Source: a bacterium BMS3Abin14 (GTDB lineage: Bacteria; BMS3Abin14). From it: 28,259 nucleotides of DNA. Shown here in pieces: positions 6,411 through 26,163 of this stretch (position 1 is the first letter of the stretch; each line of letters starts with the position of its first letter). A program made the translations under genes and the position numbers. A model generated the notes under the pieces. That model was given only the letters and a program-made list of their open reading frames with translations. It did not search any database and had not been told where the DNA came from. The stretch spans positions 1 through 28,259 of the forward strand of contig BDTG01000022.1 of assembly GCA_002897695.1 (NCBI GenBank), in the 5' to 3' direction.

Positions 6411-6661
6411 TCGCAAAAAGTCCATCAACGCGTTCACTGAAGGGACGACACCGGATGCGGCATGCGATTTTCAGAATCAGCTTGTTTCGGACGCCAGCGG
6501 TGGCATAATAATGAATTCGGAAGAAGTCATCAACGCGCACACTTAGAGATGCGCAAATCGAAGATTTGTGGGTAAAGTGAGAACGACGTTTTTCGCTTTC
6601 CGTTGAGTAAAGACCACGAACCTGCCTGTGCGTCGCATGCTGGCAGGTGGACTTTTTGCGA
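6411..6661. mobile_element. MITE-like element bounded by 14-bp perfect inverted repeats
   Basis: TCGCAAAAAGTCCA at 6411-6424 is repeated exactly inverted at 6648-6661, enclosing 223 bases with no coding frame. Inside are an AAGTC(C)ATCAACGCG motif twice (6418-6432 and 6524-6537), a CAAATC/GATTTG hairpin (6554-6568) and a longer stem closed by CCTGCC/GGCAGG (6621-6647). The left end is also part of a local 29-base hairpin (6401-6429). No clear target duplication is visible. It ends about 10 bases before the pgm ribosome site, so it forms most of the pgm leader. Confidence 0.5.
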
Positions 6662-6681
6662 CCCTATATATTGAGGTAATC

Positions 6682-8346
6682 ATGAAAACAGACCCTCTCG
6701 CGGGAAAACCGGTGGAACCAGGGATGCTGGTGGACATACCAAGGCTAATCACGGCCTACTACACTGAGGTCCCAGACCCCGCTTTCCCGGCACAGCGGGT
6801 GGCGTTCGGCACCTCCGGACATCGAGGCACTCCCTTTGACAGGTCCTTCAACGAAAACCACATCCTGGCGATCACCCAGGCTATCTGCCTCTATCGAAAT
6901 ACGCAGGGAACAGACGGCCCGCTTTTTCTGGGAATCGACACCCACGCGCTTTCGACCCCAGCCTGCACAACCGCCCTCGAGGTCCTTGCGGCAAACGGCG
7001 TCGAGGTGATGATCGCAGAAGGGGACGAATATACGCCCACACCGGTGATCTCCCATGCGATCCTGACCTTCAATCGGGGCCGGAAGGCCGGGCTCGCCGA
7101 CGGAATAGTGGTCACACCCTCGCACAACCCGCCGTCCGATGGAGGCTTCAAATACAACCCGCCCAATGGCGGACCGGCCGACACGGCAGCAACCGCATGG
7201 ATCGAGGAAAAGGCCAACAAGTTTCTCAAATCCCGGCTGGACGGCGTGAAGCGGGTAACGCCGGCCAACGCCCTCAACGCCTCCACGACCCGCCGGCACG
7301 ACTATCTTGGCGCCTACATCGCAGATCTCGAGAACGTGGTTGATATGGAGACCATACGCGGGGCGCATCTAACCATGGGAGTTGATCCCCTGGGCGGTTC
7401 AGGCGTCCATTACTGGGGACGAATAGCCGATCGCTACGGCCTGAACATCGATGTGGTCAACGAAACCGTGGATCCCACGTTCCGCTTTATGACCGCGGAT
7501 TGGGACGGCCAGATACGGATGGACCCCTCATCGGTCTACGCGATGCGGCGATTGATAGGCATGAAGGACCGCTTCGATCTTTCCTTCGCCTGCGATACCG
7601 ACCATGATCGGCACGGCATCGTCACACGAAGTGAAGGGTTGCTCCCGCCCAACCACTATCTGTCCGTCGTGATCTTTTACCTCTTTCAACACCGGCCGAA
7701 GTGGCGCAGGGAAGCGGCGGTGGGCAAAACCGTGGTGAGCAGCCGGATGATCGACCGCGTCGCCGAGAAGCTCGGTCGGAAGCTCTACGAGGTACCGGTG
7801 GGTTTCAAGTGGTTCGTTGACGGTCTGCTCGACGGTTCGCTTGGGTTCGCCGGGGAAGAAAGTGCGGGGGCTTCCTTCGCCCGCCTGGACGGCACCGTCT
7901 GGACGACGGACAAGGATGGGATTATCCCGGCTTTGCTGGCGGCAGAGATCACCGCCCGCATGGGCAGGGATCCCGGCGAGATATACCATGAACTAACGCG
8001 CGAGTTCGGTGATCCTGCCTATGCCCGCATCGATGCGCCGGCAACTCCGGATCAAAAGAAACTTCTGGCAAAACTTTCGCCGCAGCAGGTAACTCTCTCC
8101 GAACTGGGGGGCGAAAAGATCCAGGCCGTCCTCACTCACGCGCCGGGCAACGACGCGCCCATCGGCGGATTGAAGGTAATTGCCGAAAGCGGATGGTTCG
8201 CAGCGCGCCCGTCAGGGACCGAGGATATCTACAAGATCTACGCGGAGAGCTTCCTTGGAACGGATCATCTGCGCCGCATTCAGGAGGAAGCCCAGGCCAT
8301 CGTAAACGATACTCTGGCATCCGACGCAGGGAGGATTGACCCATGA
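6682..8346 (+). CDS. pgm: Phosphoglucomutase (alpha-D-glucose 1-phosphate/6-phosphate)
   Basis: 554 residues, close to E. coli Pgm. It interconverts glucose 1-phosphate and glucose 6-phosphate, linking glycogen or nucleotide-sugar metabolism to central carbon flow. Seen are FGTSGHRG (42-49), TPSHNP (145-150, phosphoserine at about 147), the metal loop DTDHDRHG, sugar-binding GEESAG and the phosphate-binding [15 protein letters not shown] near the C-terminus. The ATG at 6682 with GAGG 6 bases upstream is chosen over an in-frame ATG at 6628, which lies inside the inverted-repeat element and lacks a ribosome site. Its stop overlaps the start of the phosphoketolase gene (ATGA), so the two are translationally coupled. 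Confidence 0.96.
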
Positions 8347-10730
8347 AGACAAAAACCCTTTCTCCGGGACTGCTCCACAGAATGGATGCTTACTGGCGTG
8401 CTGCAAACTATCTGGGGGTCGGCCAGATTTATCTATACGACAATCCGCTGCTGAAGCGTCCGCTGACAATCGAGGATGTGAAGCACATGCTTCTGGGACA
8501 CTGGGGCACGACTCCCGGACAGAACTTTATTTACGTACACTTGAACCGGGTCATCAAAAAATACGTCCTCGACATGATTTACGTTTCCGGCCCAGGGCAC
8601 GGCGGCCCGGCGGTCGTGGCCAACACTTATCTCGAGGGCACTTACAGCGAGATATATCCCGACATCAGCCGGGATGAGGCCGGGCTTCGGAAGCTCTTTA
8701 TCCAGTTTTCGTTTCCCGGAGGAATCCCGAGCCACGCATCCCCGGAGTGCCCCGGCTCGATTCACGAGGGCGGTGAGCTGGGCTATTCGCTCAGCCATTC
8801 GTTCGGGGCTGTGTTCGACAATCCCGATCTCATCGTCGCCTGCGTCATCGGCGACGGCGAGGCGGAAACAGGTCCACTGGCCACCTCATGGCATTCGAAC
8901 AAGTTCCTCGATCCGGCAACCGACGGCGCGGTGCTGCCCATCCTTCATCTGAACGGTTACAAGATTTCCAACCCCACTGTTCCTGCCCGCATCTCCCGCG
9001 AGGAATTGGAACAACTACTTCGCGGTTACGGGTGGACGCCCTACTTTGTCGAAGGCCACGAGCCCGAGCCGATGCATGAGGCCATGGCCATGGCCCTCGA
9101 TACAGCGATAGAAAAGATCAAAAAAATCCAGCAGGACGCCCGCATCCACGGCAATTTAGCACGTCCGCGCTGGCCGATGATCGTTCTCAATTCACCCAAG
9201 GGGTGGACGGGGCCGGAAATGGTCGATGGACTCCAGGTTGAAGGCACCTTCCGTTCACACCAGGTGCCGCTCTCCAACCCTGCCGCCCATCCCGAACAGC
9301 TTGAGCTGTTGGAAGAATGGCTGAGAAGCTACCGGCCGGAGGAACTCTTCGATAAACAGGGCTGTCTGAAACCGGAGCTGGCCGAACTTGCTCCCAGGGG
9401 CGAGCGGCGCATGGGGGCGAATCCCCACGCCAACGGCGGCATTTTGCTCCGCGACCTGCGGATGCCGGATTTCCGAAACTACGCTGTTGAGGTGCCCTCC
9501 CCTGGGGCTCCCGGCATCGGGGACACGCATGTCCTCGGGCGTTTCCTGCGCGACGTGGTAAAGCAGAACAGTGAGCAGCGGAATTTCCGGGTCTTTGGCC
9601 CTGACGAAACGATCTCCAACGGCCTGGAGGCTCTCTTTGAGGTGACCAAGCGCCAATGGGACGCTGCGACTGTGCCGAACGACGAATTTCTGGCGGCCAG
9701 CGGACGCGTGGTGGAAATGCTCAGCGAGCACCAGTGCGAGGGCTGGCTCGAGGGCTATCTGCTCACCGGGAGGCATGGACTCTTCAACTGCTACGAGGCA
9801 TTTATCCACATCATCGATTCCATGTTCAACCAGCACGCCAAGTGGCTGAAGGTAACTGCGGGTCTCCCGTGGCGGCGGAAGATAGCTTCGTTAAACTACC
9901 TGCTGACCTCGCATGTCTGGCGTCAGGACCACAACGGCTTTACGCACCAGGACCCCGGTTTCATCGACCACGTCGTTAACAAAAAAGCCGAGGTTGTGCG
10001 CGTTTACCTACCACCGGATGCAAACTGCCTGCTGTCGGTGATGGACCACTGTCTGAGAAGCCGCCATTACGTCAACGTCGTGATCGCGGGCAAGCACCCG
10101 GCACCGCAGTGGCTGACGATGGACGATGCCGTCAAGCACTGCACCGAGGGAATCGGCATCTGGCCGTGGGCCGGCAACGACCATGGCGCTGCGCCCGATG
10201 TGGTCATGGCCTGCTGTGGCGACGTGCCCACGTTGGAGACGCTCGCCGCCGTTTCTATTATGCGCAAGCACTTCCCCGAGCTGAAAATCCGGGTGGTCAA
10301 TGTCGTCGACCTCATGAAGCTGCAGCCGCAAACCGAGCACCCCCACGGACTCTCCGACATGGATTTCGACGAACTCTTCACCAGGGACAAGCCCGTAATC
10401 TTTGCCTTCCATGCCTACCCGTGGTTGATCCATCGACTGACCTACCGCCGCACCAACCATGACAATATCCACGTTCGCGGCTATAAGGAAGAAGGCACCA
10501 TCACCACGCCCTTCGACATGACTGTGCTCAACGACCTGGACCGCTTCCATCTGGTGATGGACGTCATCGACCGGCTGCCGCAGACCGGGGACAAAGGCAT
10601 CGACCTGAAGAGCCGGCTTAAAGACAAGCTCATCGAGCACAGGCAATACATCAATCGCCACGGCCAGGACATGCCGGAAATCCGAAACTGGGAATGGGGC
10701 AGCCCAGCTGCAGCGGACTACCCTCTTTAA
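8343..10730 (+). CDS. xfp: Xylulose-5-phosphate/fructose-6-phosphate phosphoketolase
   Basis: 795 residues, normal for the family. A thiamine-diphosphate enzyme that cleaves xylulose 5-phosphate or fructose 6-phosphate with phosphate into acetyl-phosphate plus glyceraldehyde 3-phosphate or erythrose 4-phosphate. Seen are GPGHGGP (83-89), [20 protein letters not shown] (123-142), the TPP motif [11 protein letters not shown] (170-180), and the middle and C-terminal signatures [14 protein letters not shown] and [17 protein letters not shown] overlap with pgm gives a direct route from glucose 1-phosphate to acetyl-phosphate. No acetate kinase gene is in the window. Whether it prefers xylulose or fructose phosphate cannot be read by eye. 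Confidence 0.97.
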
Positions 10731-14194: not shown

Positions 14195-16240
14195 ATGAGA
14201 CTCAGGAACCTGAAAGTCGGCACACAACTGCGCCTGGGGCTGGGCCTGATTCTGGTGTTCGTGTTAGGCATCGGCCTGTTGACCTGGAGAACCTCGAACG
14301 TACTCTCGTCCCAGACCAGGACGCTATATGACCACCCTCTGAAGGTCCGCAATGCCCTTGGCGCGCTCACTGCCGACATGCTGATAATTCACCGGAACGC
14401 GGACGACCCGAATTCGGAAGGCGCCCCGGGCAGGGTAAATGCCGCCAAACTCGATGCCTCCCGGCAATTTGATATCCTTTATGACCGTTACCTCGGCCCG
14501 AGGGCTGACGTCTCCGATCTTGAGGCTGGATTCATGGACTGGTACGCTTTCAACGAAAAAACCGTACTGATGCACCAGGCAGGCGGGCCAATCGAGGCCG
14601 GTATCAGGAACAAAAAAACGAACAGGATTCTGGATGAAAACATGATGGCCCGGTTCAGTAAAGTGACTGACTTTGCCAGTGCCAAGGCCAAACTGATCTA
14701 CAACAACTCCATGATTGAGAGCAGAAACCTGAGAAACCAACTGGCCCTCATCGTTTCAGTCATTCTGCTGACCTCCCTGATCGTCTCCTGGGGTTTGATA
14801 AAGGGGATCAGGAACCCGCTTATGCAACTGACCGCAGCGGGTATGTCTCGACCAACGAATTCGGTATATTATCCCACGCGTTCAACGCCTTGGCCGACAC
14901 GATTCAGGCCGACTTGAACCTGAAAGGGACCGCTTCGTCGCTCGCCAACGCAATGTCCCGTGAAACCGGGGCGCGCGCATTCTTCCGGGAACTGCTCCAG
15001 GGACTCATGGAGCCTACCGGCTCCCTGAGCGGGGCCGTTTACATACTGAACCGGCAGAAGACCGAGTTCGAGCATTTCGAGTCCATCGGCCTTTCCGGGG
15101 ACGGACGCGCCTCGTTCTCGGCCTCGACACGCGAGGGCGAGTTCGGCGCGGCACTGGCCACGGGCCGGATCCAGCGGGTTACCGACATCCCCGGTGATAC
15201 ACGTTTTTCCTTTGTCGCGGTCAGCGGGGAGTTAAAGCCGCGGGAAATTGTGACCATTCCGGTGCTTTCGGATGAGGGGGCCACGGCGATGGTGTCCCTG
15301 GCATCCGTCCACGTCTATACCGAATCGGCCCTGAGGCTGCTGGACGAAATCTGGGACAGTCTGAACGCCCGCGTGAACGGCGTACTTGCCTTCCGGCGGA
15401 TCCAGGATTACGCGGAGCGGCTTGAATCCCAGAACCGGGAACTGGAAACCCAGAAGAAGGAGATGGCCGCGCAGACTGACGAACTGACGGAGATGAACAC
15501 GGAGTTGGAGCTGCAAAAGCGGCAACTGGACGAGGCCAATCGGCTCAAAAGCAGTTTTCTTTCAAACATGAGCCACGAACTGCGCACGCCGCTCAACTCG
15601 GTGATCGCTCTATCGAACGTACTGGGCCGCCGGTTGGCAAAGACCATCCCCGAAGAGGAATACGGCTATCTGGACGTGATCGAACGCAACGGTAAACAGC
15701 TCCTGGCGCTGATCAACGACATCCTCGACATCTCCCGCATCGAAGCCGTCCAGGAAAAGATCACCCTCGGTCATTTTTCCATCAGGACCCTGGTCAGCGA
15801 AATTACGGACATGCTCGAACCCCAGTCGCAGGAAAAGGGCATTGCTCTCCTCAATCAGGTTGGAGACGACCTGCCGCCGGTCGTCTCCGATCCCGACAAG
15901 TGCCGACAACCTGCAAACCTTGTGGGCGCTGCTTTCCGATGCCTATACCGTCCTCGAAGCGCTTGATGGGCGGTCAGGCGTCGACCAGGCCCGGCGGCAT
16001 CAGCCCAATATCATCCTGATGGATATTGGGCTGCCCGTCATGGACGGCTTCGCCGCGCTGGCGGAGATCAGAGAGGACGAAGCGCTGAGCCGCATCCCGA
16101 TTGTGGCCGTCACCGCCAGTGCGATGAAAGGTGATCGGGAGCGGATTATCGCCCGAGGCTTTAACGGCTACATCTCCAAGCCGATTAACGAGGAAATTCT
16201 CCGAAAAACCCTGCACGAGGCGCTTTATGGAAATGAATGA
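14195..16240 (+). pseudogene. Hybrid sensor histidine kinase, disrupted by two deletions (HAMP and HATPase regions)
   Basis: Three pieces in different frames read as one former protein. 14195 to about 14835: membrane segment, periplasmic four-helix sensor (ADMLIIHRNADD, QFDILYDRYLG), second membrane segment and the start of HAMP. About 14836 to 15900: end of HAMP (NEFGILSHAFNALADTIQ), GAF, coiled coil and HisKA with SFLSNMSHELRTPLNSV. About 15900 to 16240: a receiver domain from ADNLQTL on, with LMDIGLPVMDGFAALAEIR and KPINEE. The frame changes inside HAMP, where spacer residues are missing. Near 15900 the text jumps from SDPDKC, which precedes the ATPase domain in such kinases, straight into the receiver. 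The whole HATPase domain and the receiver start are absent, so autophosphorylation is impossible. Real decay and a mis-assembly are both possible. Confidence 0.85.
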
Positions 16241-18248
16241 CATGAAGATATTGGCGATTGACGATAACCGGCACAACCTGACGGCGCTCAAAGCGATCCT
16301 GGCGGACAGACTGCCTCACGCCAGGCTCTTCACCGCCCTGGACGGCCTGAAGGGGCTCGAACTTGCCAGGGCCGAGGACCCGGACGTGATCCTGCTCGAC
16401 ATCGTCATGCCGGGCATGGACGGATACGCGGTCTGCCGGAAGCTGAAAGAAGACGGACGCCTGCGGTCAATCCCGGTTGTCTTTCTTACTGCCCTCAGGA
16501 CCGACCAGGAAAGCCGCGTAAAGGCCCTGGAAGCGGGGGCAGAAGGGTTTTTAGCCAAGCCGTTTGACGCACTCGAACTGACCGCTCAGATCCGGGCCAT
16601 GATCAAGGTCAAAGCGGCCAACAACCTGCAGTGGATGGGGAGGGAACAGCTGACATCTTTGGTGTTAGAGCGCACCATCGAACTGGAGAAGGAACTCGCC
16701 GAACGCAGGCGGATCGAGGCCGAGCGTGATCGGTTGATAACGGCGATAGAGGAGACAGATGAGTCCATCTACATCACCGACCTCGACGGAAATATCCTGT
16801 ACATCAACTCGGCTGTGGTGAGGAACACCGGCTATTCCAGAGACGAAATGGTGGGTCAAAATCCGCGCATTGTCAAAAGCGGCAAACAGGACGAAGCGTT
16901 CTACCGCGACCTCTGGGCAACCATCTCCGGCGGCAAAACCTGGAAAGGACAGATGGTCAACAGACGCAAGGATGGGGCCCTTTATACCGTGGATAAAACG
17001 ATATCGCCGGTGCACGACCCTGCTGGAGCGATCGTTAATTACGTGGCCATCAATCATGACATCACCGAACACCTGCGTGTCAGTGCGGATAAGGCCAGAT
17101 TGAAAGAGGAATTGCATCAGGCCCAGCGGATGGAGGCCATCGGCAGACTCGCAGGCGGTGTGGCTCACGATTTCAACAACATGTTGAGTGTGATTCTCGG
17201 CCACGGTGAAATGCTCCTTTCTAAACTCCAGGCCGAAGACCCTTCTCGTGAAAAGGTTGCTGCCATCGTCAAGGCCGGACGGAGATCCTCGGATCTTACG
17301 CGGCAGCTTCTCACTTTTGCCCGCCGGCAGATCATCGACCCTGAGAACATGGACCTTAACCAGGCGGTGACCGAACTTCTGAAACTCCTCCGGAATGTCA
17401 CCAGAGAAGACATTGAGATCAAGACCATACCGGCGGATAAACTAATGATGATCCACGCCGACCGGGGACAGATCGAGCAGGTGCTGATGAACCTCTGCCT
17501 CAACGCCCGGGACGCCATGCCTGAGGGGGGACAGATGATCATCGAGACCAAAGAGGCATCGGTGAACAGTCAGGATGTGAAGCAGCATCCGTACATGAAA
17601 GTGGGGAAGTATGTTCTGCTTTCGGTGAGCGACAACGGGGTCGGGATGGGCGAGAATATCTATAAGCACGTCTTCGAACCGTTTTTCACCACCAAAGGCC
17701 CCAACAAGGGGACCGGTCTCGGGTTGTCCGTCGTTTTCGGGATCGTGAAGCAGCATGGCGGGTACATCCACCTGGACAGCGAACCGGAAAGGGGGACGAA
17801 ATTCACCATCTATTTTCCCGCAGTGGATGCCCCCCCGGACGCCCGATCGGCGGTTTCATCGAAGCCGGCCAGGGGAGGGACCGAAACACTTCTCGTTGCG
17901 GAGGACGAGGACTCGGTCCGGGACCTGTTTCAGCAGACGTTGGAATCGTACGGATACAAAGTCCTGACTGCCCGGAACGGCGCTGAGGCGGTTGAGGTCT
18001 ATCTCACCCACAGGGAAGAGATTGCTCTCGCCGTACTCGATGTCGTCATGCCAAAGAAGGGTGGGAAGGAGGCCTACGACGAGATAGCCAAAATCACCCC
18101 TGGTCTCAAGGTCCTGTTTTTGAGCGGATACTCCACCAACGCGATCCACGATGATTTCATTCTCAGCCCAGGACTCTCATTCCTCCAGAAGCCGTTCATT
18201 CCTTCTGTGTTGGCCAGGAAAGTCCGGGAGATATTGGATACAAAATAA
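16227..18248 (+). CDS. REC-PAS-HisKA-HATPase-REC hybrid histidine kinase
   Basis: 673 residues, cytoplasmic (no membrane segment). N-terminal receiver (1-125, Asp12/13, phospho-Asp58, Lys111), coiled coil, PAS (about 170-285), HisKA with [11 protein letters not shown] (His314), HATPase with N-box NLCLNARDAM, G1 DNGVGMGE and G2 GTGLGLSVV, then a C-terminal receiver with VLDVVMPKKGG. It should pass phosphate from a partner kinase or its own His to its receivers. ATG at 16227 has GAGG 7 bases upstream and overlaps the end of the broken kinase gene by 14 bases, implying one operon; Met6 at 16242 is an alternative. Its upstream partner kinase being broken, its input may now come from elsewhere. 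Confidence 0.94.
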   Translation: MEMNDMKILAIDDNRHNLTALKAILADRLPHARLFTALDGLKGLELARAEDPDVILLDIVMPGMDGYAVCRKLKEDGRLRSIPVVFLTALRTDQESRVKALEAGAEGFLAKPFDALELTAQIRAMIKVKAANNLQWMGREQLTSLVLERTIELEKELAERRRIEAERDRLITAIEETDESIYITDLDGNILYINSAVVRNTGYSRDEMVGQNPRIVKSGKQDEAFYRDLWATISGGKTWKGQMVNRRKDGALYTVDKTISPVHDPAGAIVNYVAINHDITEHLRVSADKARLKEELHQAQRMEAIGRLAGGVAHDFNNMLSVILGHGEMLLSKLQAEDPSREKVAAIVKAGRRSSDLTRQLLTFARRQIIDPENMDLNQAVTELLKLLRNVTREDIEIKTIPADKLMMIHADRGQIEQVLMNLCLNARDAMPEGGQMIIETKEASVNSQDVKQHPYMKVGKYVLLSVSDNGVGMGENIYKHVFEPFFTTKGPNKGTGLGLSVVFGIVKQHGGYIHLDSEPERGTKFTIYFPAVDAPPDARSAVSSKPARGGTETLLVAEDEDSVRDLFQQTLESYGYKVLTARNGAEAVEVYLTHREEIALAVLDVVMPKKGGKEAYDEIAKITPGLKVLFLSGYSTNAIHDDFILSPGLSFLQKPFIPSVLARKVREILDTK

Positions 18249-18259
18249 ATTCCTGCATC

Positions 18260-18484
18260 TCAACCTCCGCCAAGCAGGGGGAAAATGGCCAGGGTGTCTC
18301 CCTCACTCAGCTCTTGGTTCTCATCGACATGCCGGTGGTTGAGGAACAGGATGCCGACCTTCGCCGCAGGAATCTGCAATTGCTCGATGACAGCTCCGGC
18401 CCTGGTCGCAGGCGGGTAATCCCGCTCCTCAATCTTGAAACGACCGTTGCGAAAGGTGGCAAACAGCTTGATCGTAACGCGCAT
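18260..18484 (-). CDS. MoaD/ThiS-like beta-grasp sulfur-carrier protein
   Basis: 74 residues with the ubiquitin-like pattern VTIKLFATFRNGR at the start, ILFLNHRHVDENQELSEGDTLAIFPLLGGG at the end (given as segments 44-58 and 59-74) and a C-terminal Gly-Gly, which in MoaD and ThiS is adenylated and thiocarboxylated. In oxidoreductase clusters such proteins serve assembly of the pterin dithiolene of the tungsten or molybdenum cofactor. ATG at 18484 has GGAGGAG 5 bases upstream; TTG one codon earlier is too close to it. Last gene of the oxidoreductase operon, 27 bases after the 189-residue protein. It ends 11 bases from the convergent kinase gene with no terminator seen between. Confidence 0.9.
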   Translation of the reverse strand: MRVTIKLFATFRNGRFKIEERDYPPATRAGAVIEQLQIPAAKVGILFLNHRHVDENQELSEGDTLAIFPLLGGG

Positions 18485-18511
18485 CAAGACTCCTCCGCCT
18501 GGATTCGTCGA

Positions 18512-19081
18512 TTACTCACAAGTTGAAACGTCAAATAAAATCTGCAGTCGCAACTCCCCCGCCTGGCCCATACCTTCCTGTTGCAGTTTCTGTGGCGGCA
18601 GGGAGATGCCTTGCAATTCGGTCGCCTCCGTGGTCGGCAATATGATGCCACGAGCCAATAACAGATCGCCCAGATCATGCATCAACAGGTTGAACAGCTT
18701 GACCCGAATCCGCCCACAGGCGCCAGATGTCGGGCGCCGTTCGGGGCTGCGGGTGACAGCACCGCGCATGGTGGCATAAAAACCACCCCGTTGCATGGTC
18801 GCCCCCACTAGACCGGGTACCGCGGATGAAAGCGCCAGGGTGGCGTCGGGGCTGATAAAGGCGGCATCAAGATTGTCGACCACCTTGCTGTTCAGAAAAA
18901 TCGTTGTTATCCGCCGGTCAATGAATTCCTGCCCAATGCCGAGCTGATCGACCAGCAGTTGTTGCAGGCTGTTCCCCGTTTCAACCTCGATCCATACCCC
19001 GCGCCGCAACAGGGGAAAAAAGCGTGTCAGGGCTTCTGCCGGCATGGTCAGTTGCAGAGTCGGTGGTGAAACGTCCAGCAT
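18512..19081 (-). CDS. Oxidoreductase-associated 189-residue protein with MoaD-like segment
   Basis: No named family recognised. Residues about 30-95 look like a beta-grasp fold. ITTIFLNSKVVDN, then SPDATLALSSAVPGLVG, lines up with ILFLNHRHVDEN, then SEGDTLAIFPLLGGG, of the MoaD/ThiS-like protein encoded next to it. Here the terminal Gly-rich turn is internal and followed by about 95 more residues containing FYATMRGAVT and IRVKLFNLLMHDLGDLLLARGIILP. It lies 15 bases after the aldehyde oxidoreductase gene and 27 before the MoaD-like gene. It could be a degenerate sulfur carrier, a cofactor-insertion chaperone or a small subunit; this is inference. ATG at 19081 has AAGG about 12 bases upstream. 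Confidence 0.75.
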   Translation of the reverse strand: MLDVSPPTLQLTMPAEALTRFFPLLRRGVWIEVETGNSLQQLLVDQLGIGQEFIDRRITTIFLNSKVVDNLDAAFISPDATLALSSAVPGLVGATMQRGGFYATMRGAVTRSPERRPTSGACGRIRVKLFNLLMHDLGDLLLARGIILPTTEATELQGISLPPQKLQQEGMGQAGELRLQILFDVSTCE

Positions 19082-19096
19082 ATGTATATTCCAGCC

Positions 19097-20830
19097 TTAA
19101 TCCCAGTTGTAAACCTGGTCGAGTTCCTCGTCGGTAACATCGAAAGTTACGTTGTGCGGCGCAAGTGGCTCATCCTTGAAGAACTGCGGCAACCGATCAT
19201 GTTGGGCACTGAACCCGGCCCGACGGTTAAACTCGCGCTCCTGAGAAAGAACCCTTTTCCCCAGTGCAGTAATATCGTCACCGGTCATTTCCAGACCGTA
19301 GAAGGCATTAAGCATGTCGATCAATGCCTGGAAGGTCTCGGGCTGATCGAGGATGGCAAAGGCGATGAACAGGCACATGCCGGTCGAATCGATGGCCGCC
19401 GTGGCGATCTGCAGATTGCGGGACAGCTCCACCTGACCGGCCGGTTTGAGCGGATCGACATCGCCGCCGACCTTGAGGATATTGGTAGCCACCGCATACC
19501 CGGCGGTGTGGTCGGCGCCCTGAGTGGTGGTGGCATAGGTGACGCCGATCCCCTGTACCGCACGCGGATCATAGGCCGGCAGCGACTGCCCCTTGACAAC
19601 CGGGACCCGCTCGACGCCGAAAGCCTTGCCGGTTACCTCAGCGCCGCTGGCGAGAATCCGCCCCATCGGGGTGCCCTTGCCGACTTCGTCGCGCACAAGG
19701 CGGATTGCCTCCGCCCCATCGCCGAATTCGATCACCCCGGCTTCCATGGCGACGCCAATGGCAACGCCCATCTCAATGGTGTCTACACCGATATTGTCGT
19801 CGAGGTAGTCAAGTTGGGCAATGATGTCGATATCGCTGATTTCGCAGTTTCCACCGTGAGCCCAAACCGTCTCGTATTCGGGTTGCTTGGTCAGATAATT
19901 ACCGTCCTTGTCATTGAAGATTCCTGAACACTGGATAACGCAGCCGCGATGGCAGCCGTGGGTCGCCTTGCCGCCACGCTTGATCTCGAGTTCGGCCTCG
20001 GTCTCACCGCTGATGTCCGCCGCTCTATCGAACTGCCCGGTGCTGAAATTGCGAGTCGGGTAGCCTCCTGCTTCGTTGAGTATGTTGGTCAGCACGTTGG
20101 TGCCGTAGGCGGGCAGCCCTTCACCTGTCACTGGATGTTTGCGCAATCCCTCGACAAAGACGCGGTTGGCATCGCGGAATTTATCCTTTTCCCTGGGCGG
20201 GCGCATCTTCATCCCGGCATCATCAAGGATGATCGCCTTGACCCGTTTTGAGCCAAGCACCGCACCCGTGCCGCCGCGACCGCAATGGCGGGTGGGATGC
20301 AGTTCGGGATCGGTGCAGGCAATAGAGGCTGCGAGAAGCTTCCTCTCGCCCGCGCTGCCGATTGACATGTAGGCGGCTTTGTCGCCGTATGTTTCCCTGA
20401 GCTTTTCAATCAGTGGGTAATTGTCGAGCATTTTCAGGCTGTTGTCGACGCTGATCTGCACACCGTCCTTGTTGATGTAGATCTTGTAGAGATCATCCCC
20501 GGTCGGCTGTCCCTCGATGATGATGGCGGCATAGCCGAGTCGCGCCAGCACCTGAGCCGCCTGGCCGCCGGCGTTCGATTCCTTGATGGTTCCGGTCAGC
20601 GGGCTTTTGCATCCGACCGAAATCCGCCCGCTCATGGCGCCTGCGGTGCCGCTGAGCATTCCTGGTGCAATCACTATCTTGTTGCCTGCGGAAAGCGCAT
20701 GACAGAGCGGATCGACCTCGCCGGAGATGATGGCAGTGGTCATCGCCCGCCCCCCAAGGCCGGCCAGATCACCAAGCGGCTCGACCTTTTGACTCAAGTC
20801 ACGCATGTCGATTCTAAGAATCTTATCCAT
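19097..20830 (-). CDS. aor: Tungsten-type aldehyde:ferredoxin oxidoreductase family protein
   Basis: 577 residues, near the usual 600. The family oxidises aldehydes to acids, or reduces acids, with a tungsten bis-pterin and one [4Fe-4S] cluster, using ferredoxin. Seen are the N-terminal GGRAMTT and GTAGAMSGRISVGCKSPLTG region, RHCGRGGTGAVLGSKRVKAI (181-200), Cys293/297/301 in GCHRGCVIQC with Cys486 in DSTGMC as cluster ligands, and the pterin-contact motifs DDNIGVD (344-350) and DSTGMC (481-486). Cysteine spacing Cx3Cx3C differs from the Cx2Cx3C of the archaeal prototype. ATG at 20830, 7 bases behind GAGGAG, is chosen over an in-frame start 90 bases upstream without such a site. First gene of an operon with the 189-residue and MoaD-like genes. 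Confidence 0.94.
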   Translation of the reverse strand: MDKILRIDMRDLSQKVEPLGDLAGLGGRAMTTAIISGEVDPLCHALSAGNKIVIAPGMLSGTAGAMSGRISVGCKSPLTGTIKESNAGGQAAQVLARLGYAAIIIEGQPTGDDLYKIYINKDGVQISVDNSLKMLDNYPLIEKLRETYGDKAAYMSIGSAGERKLLAASIACTDPELHPTRHCGRGGTGAVLGSKRVKAIILDDAGMKMRPPREKDKFRDANRVFVEGLRKHPVTGEGLPAYGTNVLTNILNEAGGYPTRNFSTGQFDRAADISGETEAELEIKRGGKATHGCHRGCVIQCSGIFNDKDGNYLTKQPEYETVWAHGGNCEISDIDIIAQLDYLDDNIGVDTIEMGVAIGVAMEAGVIEFGDGAEAIRLVRDEVGKGTPMGRILASGAEVTGKAFGVERVPVVKGQSLPAYDPRAVQGIGVTYATTTQGADHTAGYAVATNILKVGGDVDPLKPAGQVELSRNLQIATAAIDSTGMCLFIAFAILDQPETFQALIDMLNAFYGLEMTGDDITALGKRVLSQEREFNRRAGFSAQHDRLPQFFKDEPLAPHNVTFDVTDEELDQVYNWD

Positions 20831-20979
20831 CACTGTTCTCCTCTCGCACGGGTTGACCACAGACGCCCCTTTCCATCCGGGAGGCCCGGCCGTTTCCCGC
20901 CGGACCCATTGGCCAGCCACCGTGAGATCAAGTCCGACAGGCGGTCAGGCTCGGGAACTACCTGAGATCTTACACAATG

Positions 20980-21008
20980 ATAATATCTTCTCTTCAGAGA
21001 GGCTTCAA
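20980..21008 (-). promoter_or_regulatory. Probable promoter of the aldehyde oxidoreductase operon
   Basis: On the minus strand, -35 TTGAAG (21003-21008), 17 bases and -10 TATTAT (20980-20985). The spacer contains the inverted repeat TCTCT/AGAGA (20989-21000), a possible operator. The leader would be about 145 bases. It faces away from the radical SAM gene. Confidence 0.5.
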
Positions 21009-21046
21009 CCATTTTTTGGAATATCCATCGGATCTTCTGTGAGTCC

Positions 21047-21076
21047 TTTACCTTCCCCATATCCTCCCGGTATACT
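21047..21076 (+). promoter_or_regulatory. Possible promoter of the radical SAM gene
   Basis: -10 TATACT (21071-21076) with a mediocre -35 TTTACC (21047-21052) at 18 bases. A start near 21083 leaves a short leader carrying GGGAGG at 21091-21096, 4 bases before the ATG. Weak -35, so low confidence. Confidence 0.35.
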
Positions 21077-21100
21077 GGAAAGCAAAGAAAGGGAGGCTTC

Positions 21101-22426
21101 ATGCAACCGACATTGACCACCTTGCCGACAGAACCGCAAAATCCGGGATTACGTGACCGGCCGACCAAACTGTTTGTCGAGACCACCTCCCGCTGTAATT
21201 TCAGCTGCGCCATGTGTGTCAAACAGAGCCCCGGAATATTAGCCGCTGAGGGGGATATTTCCGCCGCAACCTTCGCCGCTCTACTGCCGGCCATGGGGTC
21301 ACTTGAAGCGCTGGTCCTCAACGGCCTCGGTGAACCACTGCTTCACCCACAGCTCGAAAACTTCATCAGTCAGGCCCGGAGGCAGATGCCGCCAACCGGC
21401 TGGATCGGTTTTCAAAGTAACGGCCTGCTCCTGGATGCGCCGCGTGCTCGTGCCCTGGCTGCAGCGGGTCTTGACCGAGTCTGCCTGTCCGTTGATGCCA
21501 GCTCACCGGAGACCTTTCGCTCCCTGCGCGAGGGAGGCGAACTGCAGGCGCTGGAGGCGGCCTTTTCCGCCCTGCGCCAGGCAAAATTGAAACGACCAGG
21601 GCTGCAATTCGGCATCGAGTTTGTCGTCATGCGGCAGAATCTCGATCAGCTTTGCGACACCCTGCGTTGGGCGGCCAGGGAGGGAGCGCGTTTTGCCCTG
21701 GTCAGTCACCTGCTTCCCTATGCCGAAAACAGCCGCAGCGACGTCGCATATCCCGACTCCACCGAAGTGGCCCTGCAGTTTTTTGACCGCTGGAGGCAGA
21801 AGGGTCAGGATACAGGGATCGACCTTGGCCGCTACTACCATCTCGCCTGGAAATACTCCCGTACCGAAGAGGAGGAACAGGTTATCAATCTGGTTGCGGC
21901 CATGAGGCGTGAGGCGGAGCAGTTGGGGATCTTTTTCAACCTGAAAAAGCTGCTGCTGATTGACCGCGCCTGGCTCGATCGGGTTGAGACGACCTTTGCC
22001 GAGGCCGAACAGGTTGCCGCCGATCTTGGCCTCGATCTGCGACTGCCTGGAGTAATTCCCAAAGCGCAGCGGCGCTGCGATTTCGTCGAAGACGGCAGCG
22101 CCTTCATAAACTGGGACGGACAGGTACATCCCTGCTATTTCCTCTGGCATAGCTGCAGTTGCCACGCCAGCGGCTGGGAGCAGCAGGTTCAGGCCCGCAG
22201 TTTCGGTCTGGTCGGCGAGCAGACTCTGCTGCAGATCTGGAACAGCCCCGAATTCAGCGCCTTCCGTCGTAGCGTCCTCAGCTACGACTATCCCTTCTGT
22301 TACGCCTGCACCCTGGCTCCATGCGACTACATCCAGACCGAACAGTTTGAGCAGGATTGCCACGTAAATGGAGAACCCTGCGGAAGCTGTCTGTGGTGCA
22401 TGGGCCTGTTTCAGTGCCTGCGTTGA
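21101..22426 (+). CDS. Radical SAM/SPASM protein, probable maturase of the adjacent tungsten oxidoreductase
   Basis: 441 residues. The radical SAM cluster motif is ETTSRCNFSCAMC (Cys32, 36, 39), followed by ALVLNGLGEPLLHP (the GGE-type SAM-binding strand) and LDRVCLSVDA. The last 110 residues hold 12 cysteines, including VHPCYFLWHSCSCH, YPFCYACTLAPC and CGSCLWCMGLFQC, a SPASM-type region for auxiliary Fe-S clusters. SPASM enzymes mostly modify peptides or proteins, and a family described as tungsten-oxidoreductase radical SAM maturase is known next to such oxidoreductases. The divergent position 270 bases from the aldehyde oxidoreductase fits that. ATG at 21101 has GGGAGG 4 bases upstream. 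The substrate is not identifiable from sequence. Confidence 0.85.
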   Translation: MQPTLTTLPTEPQNPGLRDRPTKLFVETTSRCNFSCAMCVKQSPGILAAEGDISAATFAALLPAMGSLEALVLNGLGEPLLHPQLENFISQARRQMPPTGWIGFQSNGLLLDAPRARALAAAGLDRVCLSVDASSPETFRSLREGGELQALEAAFSALRQAKLKRPGLQFGIEFVVMRQNLDQLCDTLRWAAREGARFALVSHLLPYAENSRSDVAYPDSTEVALQFFDRWRQKGQDTGIDLGRYYHLAWKYSRTEEEEQVINLVAAMRREAEQLGIFFNLKKLLLIDRAWLDRVETTFAEAEQVAADLGLDLRLPGVIPKAQRRCDFVEDGSAFINWDGQVHPCYFLWHSCSCHASGWEQQVQARSFGLVGEQTLLQIWNSPEFSAFRRSVLSYDYPFCYACTLAPCDYIQTEQFEQDCHVNGEPCGSCLWCMGLFQCLR

Positions 22427-23437: not shown

Positions 23438-23646
23438 CGCTCGCAGGCCCACTACCGGCCTTTCCAACATCCGCACTCCGGGCTGTTCTTTCCCCTCGAT
23501 CGCGACTATACTTATGGCCATGGGGTTTTCCGTGCCCACAGAATGACCAGACAATGGTATCGATTTGGGGCCTGTCGCCGGAATAGCCCATGAGTTGGGG
23601 GTGGTGCTGTTTCGGGGCAGGGATCGAGTATTGGGGAAGTTTTGCC

Positions 23647-26163
23647 ATGGATAAAAAGATCGAGAAGCATCCTGCCGGTGAGCCTGGAAGCCGTCCCGGA
23701 TTTTCGGATGTGGATCTGGAAAGCCCCGAAAAAAAATTCCTGATGCTCGCGAAGTTCTCACCGATAGGCCTTTTTCTGGATGATCCCCAGGGACATTGCA
23801 TCTACATCAATCCAAGAGGCTCCGAAATATTAGGGCTGTCGCCGGAAGAGGCCCTCTCTCTTGACTGGGCTCCGTTCATTCACCCCGATGACCGCGAGCG
23901 GGTGGTAACGGAGTGGAACAGGGCCGTGGAGAATCGCGGTGTGTTTCACCAGGAATACCGATGGGTCCACCCCGACGGTACAGTTGTCCATACACACGAA
24001 CTCTTTTATCCGGTCATCGGGGCCGCCGGGGACGTTGAAGTTTTCGTTGGGACCCTCATGGACATTACCAGACGCAAGGCCACTGAAGAGCGGGCTGAAA
24101 GGCTTCAAAGGCTCTACCGTGCGACAACCCGGATCAACCATGCCGTTGTCCAACTCCGGGACCCCCTGAAGCTTTTCCGGGAGATGTGTCGCCTTGCTGT
24201 TGAGGAGGGCGGTTTTCAGATGGTCTGGGTCGGAATGCCAGACGAGAAAAAGGAGTTCGTCAAGATCGTCGCCTCCTCGGACACCACAACTGAACACCTT
24301 GAACAGGTCAATATCGCCCTCGACGAAGGGCCCCGGGGACAAGGTCCCACCGGGACGGCCCTGAGGGAAGGGCGCCCTGTGATCTGCAACCGGATCGCAT
24401 CCGATCCTAAAATGGCACCCTGGAGGGGTAATGCCTTGCGGCATGGCTTCGGCTCCTCGGCGGCATTCCCCCTGGAGGCACAGGACAAGATTCGATGGAT
24501 TGTCAACTTTTATGCCGATGAGCCGGACTTTTTCAACGATGAGGAGGTTGAACTGCTGGTTGACGTTGTTGGAAACATCTCCCTTGCCCTTGAACGTGCC
24601 GGAAGGGATGTGGAGATCGAGACACTCAACGAATGCCTCCTCCGGGCACAGCGATTTGCCGGGCTTGGGTTTATTGACTGGGATCTGAAAACTGACGAGG
24701 CTGTTCTTTCGGACGAGATCTACCACATCTTCGGGATCGAGAAGGGTACGATGAGGGCCACTCAGAAACTGGTTGCAAACGCCGTTCACCCGGACGATCA
24801 AAAACGCGTTCGGGAGGGACTCGGAAAAACGGTCAGGGGTGAAAGTGAATACGACGAAGAACACCGAATTGTGCGGCCCGACGGCAGCGAGCGCTGGGTC
24901 AGGGCACAGGCCGTACCGGTTGTCCGGGACGAAAACGGAAAACCGGAGACCCTTTTCGGCACAGTTCTCGACATAACCGAAAGGAAGGAGACCGAGGCCA
25001 GAAATGTTGTCGTTGAGGAGCAGCTGCTCCAGGCCCAGAAGATGGAATCGGTGGGCCGTCTCGCCGGAGGGGTGGCTCACGATTTTAACAACATGCTGAC
25101 TGTGATCACCGGCCTCACGGAAATGGCCCTCTCCAAACTGGATCATTCCCACCCCCTTTTCAGGACTCTTACCCAGGTTTGTGAGGCGGCCAGTCGATCT
25201 GCGGATCTTACCAGGCAGCTGCTGGCATTTTCCAGACAACAGGTCATATCCCCCCGTTCCCTCGACCTGAATCTGAAAATCGGGGACACTGTCGGGTTTC
25301 TCCGGAAACTTGTCGGTGAGAACATAGGTTTTACCCATATTCCAGGCGACAGCCTCTGGACGGTCAACCTCGACCCGGTCCAGTTTGACCAGATATTGAC
25401 AAATCTGGCCATCAACAGCCGGGATGCCATCCAGGATACTGGAGAGATCATAATTGAAACGAGCAACATTTCTCTTGACGAATCCTATTCCGACAGCAGG
25501 CCTGATTTCTCCCCCGGAGACTACGTGATGATGGCCTTCACTGACAACGGATTCGGCATGACCAAGGAGGTCATGGGGAAAATATTCGAGCCCTTCTTTA
25601 CCACGAAGGAACGCGGATCCGGTACCGGCCTGGGCTTGGCAACCGTTTACGGGATCGTCAGGCAGAACGACGGATTCATCAATGTCTACTCCGAGGTGGG
25701 CAAGGGAACAACGTTCAGGATCTACTTCCCCAGGTTTGAGTCGGCTCCCGAGGCCATCGGGGAGACTGTCGAGCCGGAATTAATAACCGGGAATGAAACC
25801 ATCCTGGTCGTCGAGGACGAAGAACTGATACTTGAATTCATAAAGGAAGCCCTGGGAACGTACGGGTACCACATCCTGGGCGCCGGTAGCCCCGAAGACG
25901 CAATTGAACTTTGCGAAAAACAGGAGACCGGAATAGACCTTCTTCTCACGGATGTCGTCATGCCCTCGATGAACGGGAAGGAACTTGCGGATAGGGTAAA
26001 AGCCTTTTTCCCCGGGATCGGGACAATCTTCATGTCAGGCTACACGGTCGACGTCGTGGCCCATCGGTCGATTCTGGAGAAGGGGGTTAACTTTGTTCAA
26101 AAGCCTTTTAATTTGGAAACTTTGGGAAGAACCATCCGGGAGGTCCTGGATTCACCGGCCTGA
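23647..26163 (+). CDS. PAS-GAF-PAS-HisKA-HATPase-REC hybrid sensor kinase
   Basis: 838 residues, soluble. PAS1 (about 30-145, [10 protein letters not shown] and YRWVHPDGT), GAF (about 165-315, [26 protein letters not shown]), PAS2 (about 335-450, [10 protein letters not shown] and DITERK), HisKA with [11 protein letters not shown] (His478), HATPase with [19 protein letters not shown] and [13 protein letters not shown], then a C-terminal receiver ([13 protein letters not shown], phospho-Asp in LLTD, KPFNLE). No cofactor-binding signature is obvious in the PAS or GAF domains, so the input is unknown. The ATG at 23647 with GGGGAAG is chosen; an in-frame ATG at 23590 has no ribosome site. It lies 219 bases ahead of the cytochrome operon on the same strand and is a plausible but unproven regulator of it. 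Confidence 0.94.

Follow-up and report, generated by a model that had tools for sequence, protein, structure and literature searches.

The window analysed here, a stretch of 28,259 nucleotides from the bacterium BMS3Abin14, encodes a tungsten-type aldehyde:ferredoxin oxidoreductase (AOR) next to a 189-residue protein, designated P189, and raises the question of which role such a protein plays beside a tungsten enzyme. FdhD/NarJ/XdhC-type loaders serve other pterin enzymes. We know of no chaperone dedicated to loading the cofactor into enzymes of the AOR family, and to our knowledge only MoaD-like helpers have so far been indicated for the supply of its cofactor.

A preliminary description, made from the sequence alone, had reported tightly spaced genes for an oxidoreductase, a 189-residue protein and a MoaD/ThiS-like protein with terminal Gly-Gly, together with a divergent SPASM radical SAM gene. 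All four open reading frames (ORFs) were found as described. On the minus strand the order is AOR, P189 and MoaD-like gene, with intergenic distances of 15 nt and 27 nt, and the radical SAM gene has the opposite orientation to AOR. The listed ORF of the MoaD-like gene starts one codon earlier, at TTG. The features are as follows:

19097–20830, minus strand: AOR, tungsten-type aldehyde:ferredoxin oxidoreductase of about 577 aa with AFOR_N and AFOR_C (Pfam)
18512–19081, minus strand: P189, 189 aa, protein of two beta-grasp-like domains, founder of an unnamed family linked to AOR (profiles and AlphaFold)
18809–19081, minus strand: N-terminal MoaD/ThiS-like beta-grasp domain of P189, residues 1–91 (VIA-align, HHalign)
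18764–18829, minus strand: invariant internal loop of P189, residues 85–106, S-x-A-x-P-G-L-V-G...R, in place of the Gly-Gly tail of MoaD/ThiS (conservation)
18515–18721, minus strand: C-terminal domain of P189, residues 121–189, probably a second, diverged copy of the N-domain, truncated in the P189 of the window (HHalign)
18260–18484, minus strand: MoaD-like/WorX-type protein, 74 aa, with GGG end (Pfam ThiS)
21101–22426, plus strand: radical SAM/SPASM protein of the TIGR04311 subfamily, optional partner (TIGR04311, PF04055, PF13186)

Two large PAS/histidine kinase/receiver hybrids, judged from their translations, lie on either side of the AOR cluster (16131–18248 and 23590–26163). At 14890–16240, a sensor-kinase ORF stops abruptly past the dimerisation region and is followed by a response-regulator remnant in another frame, as if the gene had suffered a frameshift or an internal deletion. 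A phosphoglucomutase-family gene and a phosphoketolase gene at 6628–10730 overlap by 4 nt and likely form a sugar-phosphate operon.

The AOR matches AFOR_N (9e-56) and AFOR_C (1e-78), and the solved structures most closely related to it are those of AORs, 1aor and 8c0z among them. As in AOR and WOR large subunits, both domains are accompanied by four cluster cysteines, arranged as C-X3-C-X3-C plus one distant Cys, and by the Thr/Glu/Tyr/His tungsten site. The equivalents of Thr243, Glu313 and His448 of PfAOR and the four cluster cysteines do not vary among 106 P189-adjacent AORs, while the equivalent of Tyr427 is Y in 104 of them. Since the tungsten-site and cluster residues are intact, the P189-adjacent AORs look like working tungsten enzymes as far as can be judged from their sequences.

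Within the cluster, the match to Pfam ThiS is limited to the short MoaD-like protein (1.1e-8, 35.9 bits, cut-off 22.5). It ends in FPLLGGG, and a GG end was found in 53/53 strong MoaD-like homologues near P189. MoaD genes linked to AOR have been proposed to act in the synthesis of the tungsten cofactor (Iyer et al. 2006, PMC1779556), and the ThiS-like WorX, encoded near tungsten oxidoreductases, has a predicted role in pterin synthesis (PMC13328260). The window protein shares the ThiS-family domain and the Gly-Gly end with WorX, and P189 alone stands between it and AOR. In Aromatoleum aromaticum, aorD and aorE encode MoaD-like products which are not present in the purified enzyme (PMC6365974). 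Co-expression of aorDE raised the activity of the Aromatoleum AOR from 4.5 to 16 U/mg, with 85 U/mg reached with tungstate, while aorDE alone gave no higher tungsten content (1.06 to 0.39 W) (PMC9295118). This gain in activity may serve as a precedent for MoaD-like helpers of AOR. By analogy, the GGG protein fits an AorD/AorE- or WorX-type role.

P189 resembles AorD and AorE in that MoaD-like accessory proteins are encoded together with AOR, but differs from them, going by their descriptions, in being long, two-domain and devoid of a Gly-Gly end. Likewise, the accounts of WorX and of AOR-linked MoaD describe the short GGG protein of the cluster well, but not P189; the passages of PMC13328260 and PMC1779556 consulted mention neither a second long beta-grasp protein nor a radical SAM gene beyond MoaA in such clusters. 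The long two-domain P189 family appears to be undescribed, while AOR-linked MoaD-like helpers are already known.

That P189 belongs to no recognised family, as had been stated earlier, is borne out by the lack of matches to Pfam and NCBIfam models. None of 75 P189 homologues matched any Pfam model convincingly, and a ThiS match was not obtained for any of them at E ≤ 1. A search of the species-level collection with the single P189 sequence returned no relatives. Using a profile seeded with one homologue (34% identity) from a distant genome, P189 was found in 57 of 395 genomes of the phylum of the seed's genome, with one copy each. An alignment-based search by a single motif in the species-level collection (about 85,000 species) yielded 330 relatives. 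The best 80 of these belong mainly to Desulfobacterota, many of them Geobacter-like, and also to Spirochaetota, Nitrospirota and Myxococcota, with one betaproteobacterial MAG. Searches of viral contigs and of plasmids yielded no P189. P189 is hence a real and widespread family, although it is unnamed.

In the small phylum of the window's own organism, a search of 11 other genomes revealed no P189. Desulfuromonadales-type AORs reach up to 78% identity to the window AOR, which branches within them in the tree. Based on these two observations, horizontal gain is the simplest reading for P189 and AOR of the window; the G+C content of the locus showed no contrast.

The AlphaFold model of P189, obtained with a 75-row alignment, has a pLDDT of 87 and a pTM of 0.82, with values above 90 over most positions of residues 11–80. 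Each half is modelled as strand-helix-strand-helix-helix-strand. In VIA-align comparisons, the N-half aligned best with the ThiS structures 1zud_2 (Z 5.3, rmsd 2.1, 58 residues aligned) and 3cwi (Z 4.8, rmsd 2.1, 59 residues aligned), followed by MoaD (Z 3.1–3.7), Urm1 and SAMP1. These matches are modest (best Z 5.3), but ThiS ranks first and second, and a single fold class accounts for most of the leading matches. AOR structures were not among the fold matches listed, and a PDB sequence search with the P189 family profile gave matches at chance level only.

At the sequence level, P189 and the MoaD-like protein have a motif in common (FLNHRHVDENQELSEGDTLAIFPLLGGG in the MoaD-like protein, FLNSKVVDNLDAAFISPDATLALSSAVPGLVGA in P189). 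BLASTP of the two single sequences detected nothing, and for this reason only profiles were trusted for their relationship. Compared to the MoaD-like family profile, residues 1–112 of P189 scored 27.9 in HHalign (maximum of 15.5 in 40 column shuffles) and residues 1–92 scored 25.2 (maximum of 21.7 in 100 shuffles). Comparison of the C-domain and N-domain profiles of P189 yielded a probability of 84% and a score of 31.7, with a shuffle maximum of 15.3. Given that the C-half can be aligned by profile with the N-half, and the N-half with the MoaD family, P189 probably arose by duplication and divergence of a MoaD-like domain. The isolated C-domain model gave no useful match in the PDB, and its first strand is unformed in the model.

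P189 shares with MoaD/ThiS the beta-grasp fold and the profile-level similarity of its N-domain, but is set apart by the duplication, by the missing ThiS match among its homologues and by its C-terminus. The structural alignments end at or near residue 91, which faces the final residues of the ThiS and MoaD chains. Past this turn 98 residues remain, and the protein ends in STCE. In place of a tail there is an internal loop in which S85, A87, P89, G90, G93 and R106 are identical in 75/75 homologues; position 97 is R in 74/75 and Q in the window protein. K128 and N131 of the C-domain are invariant as well. The loop, residues 85–106, is modelled with lower confidence (pLDDT about 68–75). Strict conservation combined with possible mobility is what a binding element would be expected to show. 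An internal RRGG stretch is variable among homologues, and since its positions vary, a new Gly-Gly end is unlikely to be set free by proteolysis. With no C-terminal Gly-Gly, an internal PGxxG loop and 98 extra residues, ordinary C-terminal thiocarboxylate chemistry by P189 is excluded.

Structure prediction and comparison to MoaD/ThiS thus agree with the preliminary description, which had inferred a beta-grasp relationship from a shared pattern and had regarded P189 as no normal thiocarboxylate carrier because it continues about 95 residues past the turn. What goes beyond it is that the C-half is itself, according to HHalign, a diverged copy of the N-half domain.

The neighbourhood of P189 was compared among named loci, which represent the 80 closest of the 330 relatives and are biased for that reason, and among loci of a wider genome set; counts refer to loci with enough flanking sequence. 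AOR lies upstream of P189, on the same strand and within 1.3 kb, in 71/74 named loci and in 32/55 loci of the wider set. The MoaD-like gene directly follows P189 in 52/77 and 13/56 loci, respectively. As the lower figures of the wider set indicate, the linkage of AOR and P189 is looser outside Geobacter-like genomes.

At the level of whole genomes, a member of the AOR clade (at least about 63% identity to the window AOR) was present in 45/57 P189 genomes compared to 7/338 P189-negative genomes (Fisher 2e-40, a value that overstates independence because the counts ignore shared ancestry). In one of the seven exceptions (G173) the P189 gene is cut by the contig end, and in another (G428) AOR is directly followed by the MoaD-like gene, without P189. 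Six of 52 genomes with this AOR clade have no detectable P189, indicating that P189 may be dispensable or replaceable, and one genome (G336) has P189 and no close AOR. Some dozen genomes encode both P189 and AOR at distant positions. Genomes with an unlinked P189 usually still have the AOR clade; no consistent non-AOR neighbour of such P189 genes was found. A MOSC-domain gene (L098:6068-6505(+)) lies directly upstream of one AOR-unlinked homologue. In the AOR tree, built with FastTree, P189-adjacent AORs make up 51/64 rows of one group with 99% support and a few occur outside it; the label requires 10 changes compared to 26 in shuffles. The coupling of P189 to a single AOR clade is tight and specific.

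In one lineage, a mini protein consisting of AFOR_C only is joined to P189 as a fusion (G437, L100:2420-3754(-)) or directly follows it (G322, L099:6353-7105(-)). These mini proteins keep the CxxCxxxC motif and the fourth Cys and lack AFOR_N. The arrangement is a physical hint that P189 acts beside the C-terminal part of AOR. Another homologue (G034, L011:8943-10346(+)), divergent from AOR, is continuous in frame with an inositol-phosphatase/CysQ-type domain and may represent a genuine fusion.

The radical SAM protein is a full member of TIGR04311 (rSAM_Geo_metal, NCBIfam), a family already named as putative metalloenzyme maturase, with 616.6 bits (cut-off 400) over residues 21–440. It also matches PF04055 and PF13186 (SPASM) and carries the motif CNFSCAMC, i.e. 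C-X3-C-X2-C. With 225 bits it falls below the cut-off of 380 for TIGR04317 (W_rSAM_matur, NCBIfam). Neither family was found by name in the open-access literature. TIGR04311 occurs in 6/57 P189 genomes compared to 11/338 others (p 0.02) and near AOR-P189 in 12/80 named loci from Desulfobacterota, Spirochaetota, Nitrospirota and Myxococcota. An AOR homologue is also present in each of the 19 genomes that have a TIGR04311 match at E ≤ 1e-60. Fifteen further TIGR04311 loci had no P189 or MoaD-like gene in their flanks, and only one of them had an AOR fragment, about 5 kb away. For TIGR04311 genes away from AOR (L221–L235) no clear common partner emerged, in a comparison blurred by opposite-frame shadow ORFs. 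The gene is best seen as an optional accessory which recurs beside AOR-P189 but lies outside the core. Of the dedicated four-gene system proposed initially, the co-occurrence of AOR and P189 therefore stands, while an obligate four-gene module does not, the radical SAM gene being absent from most P189 genomes and present elsewhere.

Taken together, the conservation of P189 and its specificity for one AOR clade suggest a protein dedicated to assisting the assembly of AOR or the loading of its cofactor. We consider it probable (roughly 60%) that the P189 family comprises tandem MoaD-like beta-grasp proteins acting as a dedicated, non-catalytic maturation partner of one clade of tungsten-dependent AORs. 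An assembly or cofactor-loading role is the best reading of the data, and both the contact with AOR or its cofactor and the step of action are inferred. The neighbouring GGG protein would act as an ordinary thiocarboxylate sulfur carrier for pyranopterin synthesis. The invariant PGLVG...R loop of P189 and the K/N positions of its second domain would hold apo-AOR and/or the pterin cofactor, by which P189 would promote assembly of the cofactor or its insertion into AOR, and the TIGR04311 protein may serve as an occasional extra maturase.

A more specific version is suggested by AOR itself, the N-terminal module of which is a tandem beta-grasp pair that binds pterin and has a suggested MoaD-like origin (Burroughs et al. 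2007, PMC1949818). P189 likewise has two tandem beta-grasp domains, and on account of this parallel it might bind pterin or the empty site, as a free-standing metallopterin carrier or insertase that arose as a MoaD duplicate, gave up sulfur chemistry and binds W-bis-pterin or the empty AOR site. Profile comparison of P189 and the AOR-N module detected no sequence relationship (score 13.5, shuffle mean 14.2), so that we put this version forward tentatively. Somewhat less likely is that P189 forms a permanent small subunit of an AOR heteromer, with a structural role or as a docking site for ferredoxin or another acceptor. The close tandem with AOR and the fusion to or position beside an AFOR_C fragment would suit such a subunit, but in about one genome in four the P189 gene lies apart from that of AOR, its inspected conserved positions include no Cys and no recognisable cofactor site, and AORs from genomes without P189 are equally intact in sequence. 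Moreover, the additional subunits known from AORs are Fe-S proteins or flavoproteins (PMC6365974, PMC13328260).

A place at the sulfur-transfer step, either as a MoaD pseudo-paralogue serving as scaffold or regulator for the MoaD-like protein or in place of MoaE in pterin synthase, appears quite doubtful. The MoaD-like halves adjoin a bona fide GG-ending MoaD-like gene in the window, but most P189 loci of the wider set are without the tandem GG protein (present at 13/56). Replacement of MoaE was considered because MoaE (Pfam PF02391) was not detected in the window's own genome (G000), which is rated 100% complete. It is rejected as a general role, since 43/57 P189 genomes have MoaE, compared to 213/395 overall. 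Despite the lack of a detectable MoaE, the same genome has four AOR genes and, as judged by eye, a MoaA-like ORF (L008:1453-2472). Least probable, and in our view very improbable, is that P189 serves as recognition element for TIGR04311 and that both install a radical SAM-type modification on AOR. The position of TIGR04311 divergent from or near AOR-P189 in four phyla and the AOR homologues in all 19 genomes with strong matches speak for it, but 51/57 P189 genomes lack TIGR04311 and the 15 other loci are not beside AOR, P189 or MoaD-like genes.

The delivery of the cofactor to tungsten enzymes of the AOR family is little understood. As a conserved and unnamed protein that tracks one AOR clade, P189 is a directly testable candidate for this step. 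It also adds to the MoaD-type proteins in which loss of the Gly-Gly tail and duplication gave rise to a partner protein. If the carrier or insertase reading holds, P189 would be a dedicated cofactor-loading chaperone for AOR which mirrors the enzyme's internal tandem beta-grasp module. P189 is possibly also a missing factor for producing these acid-reducing enzymes in other hosts.
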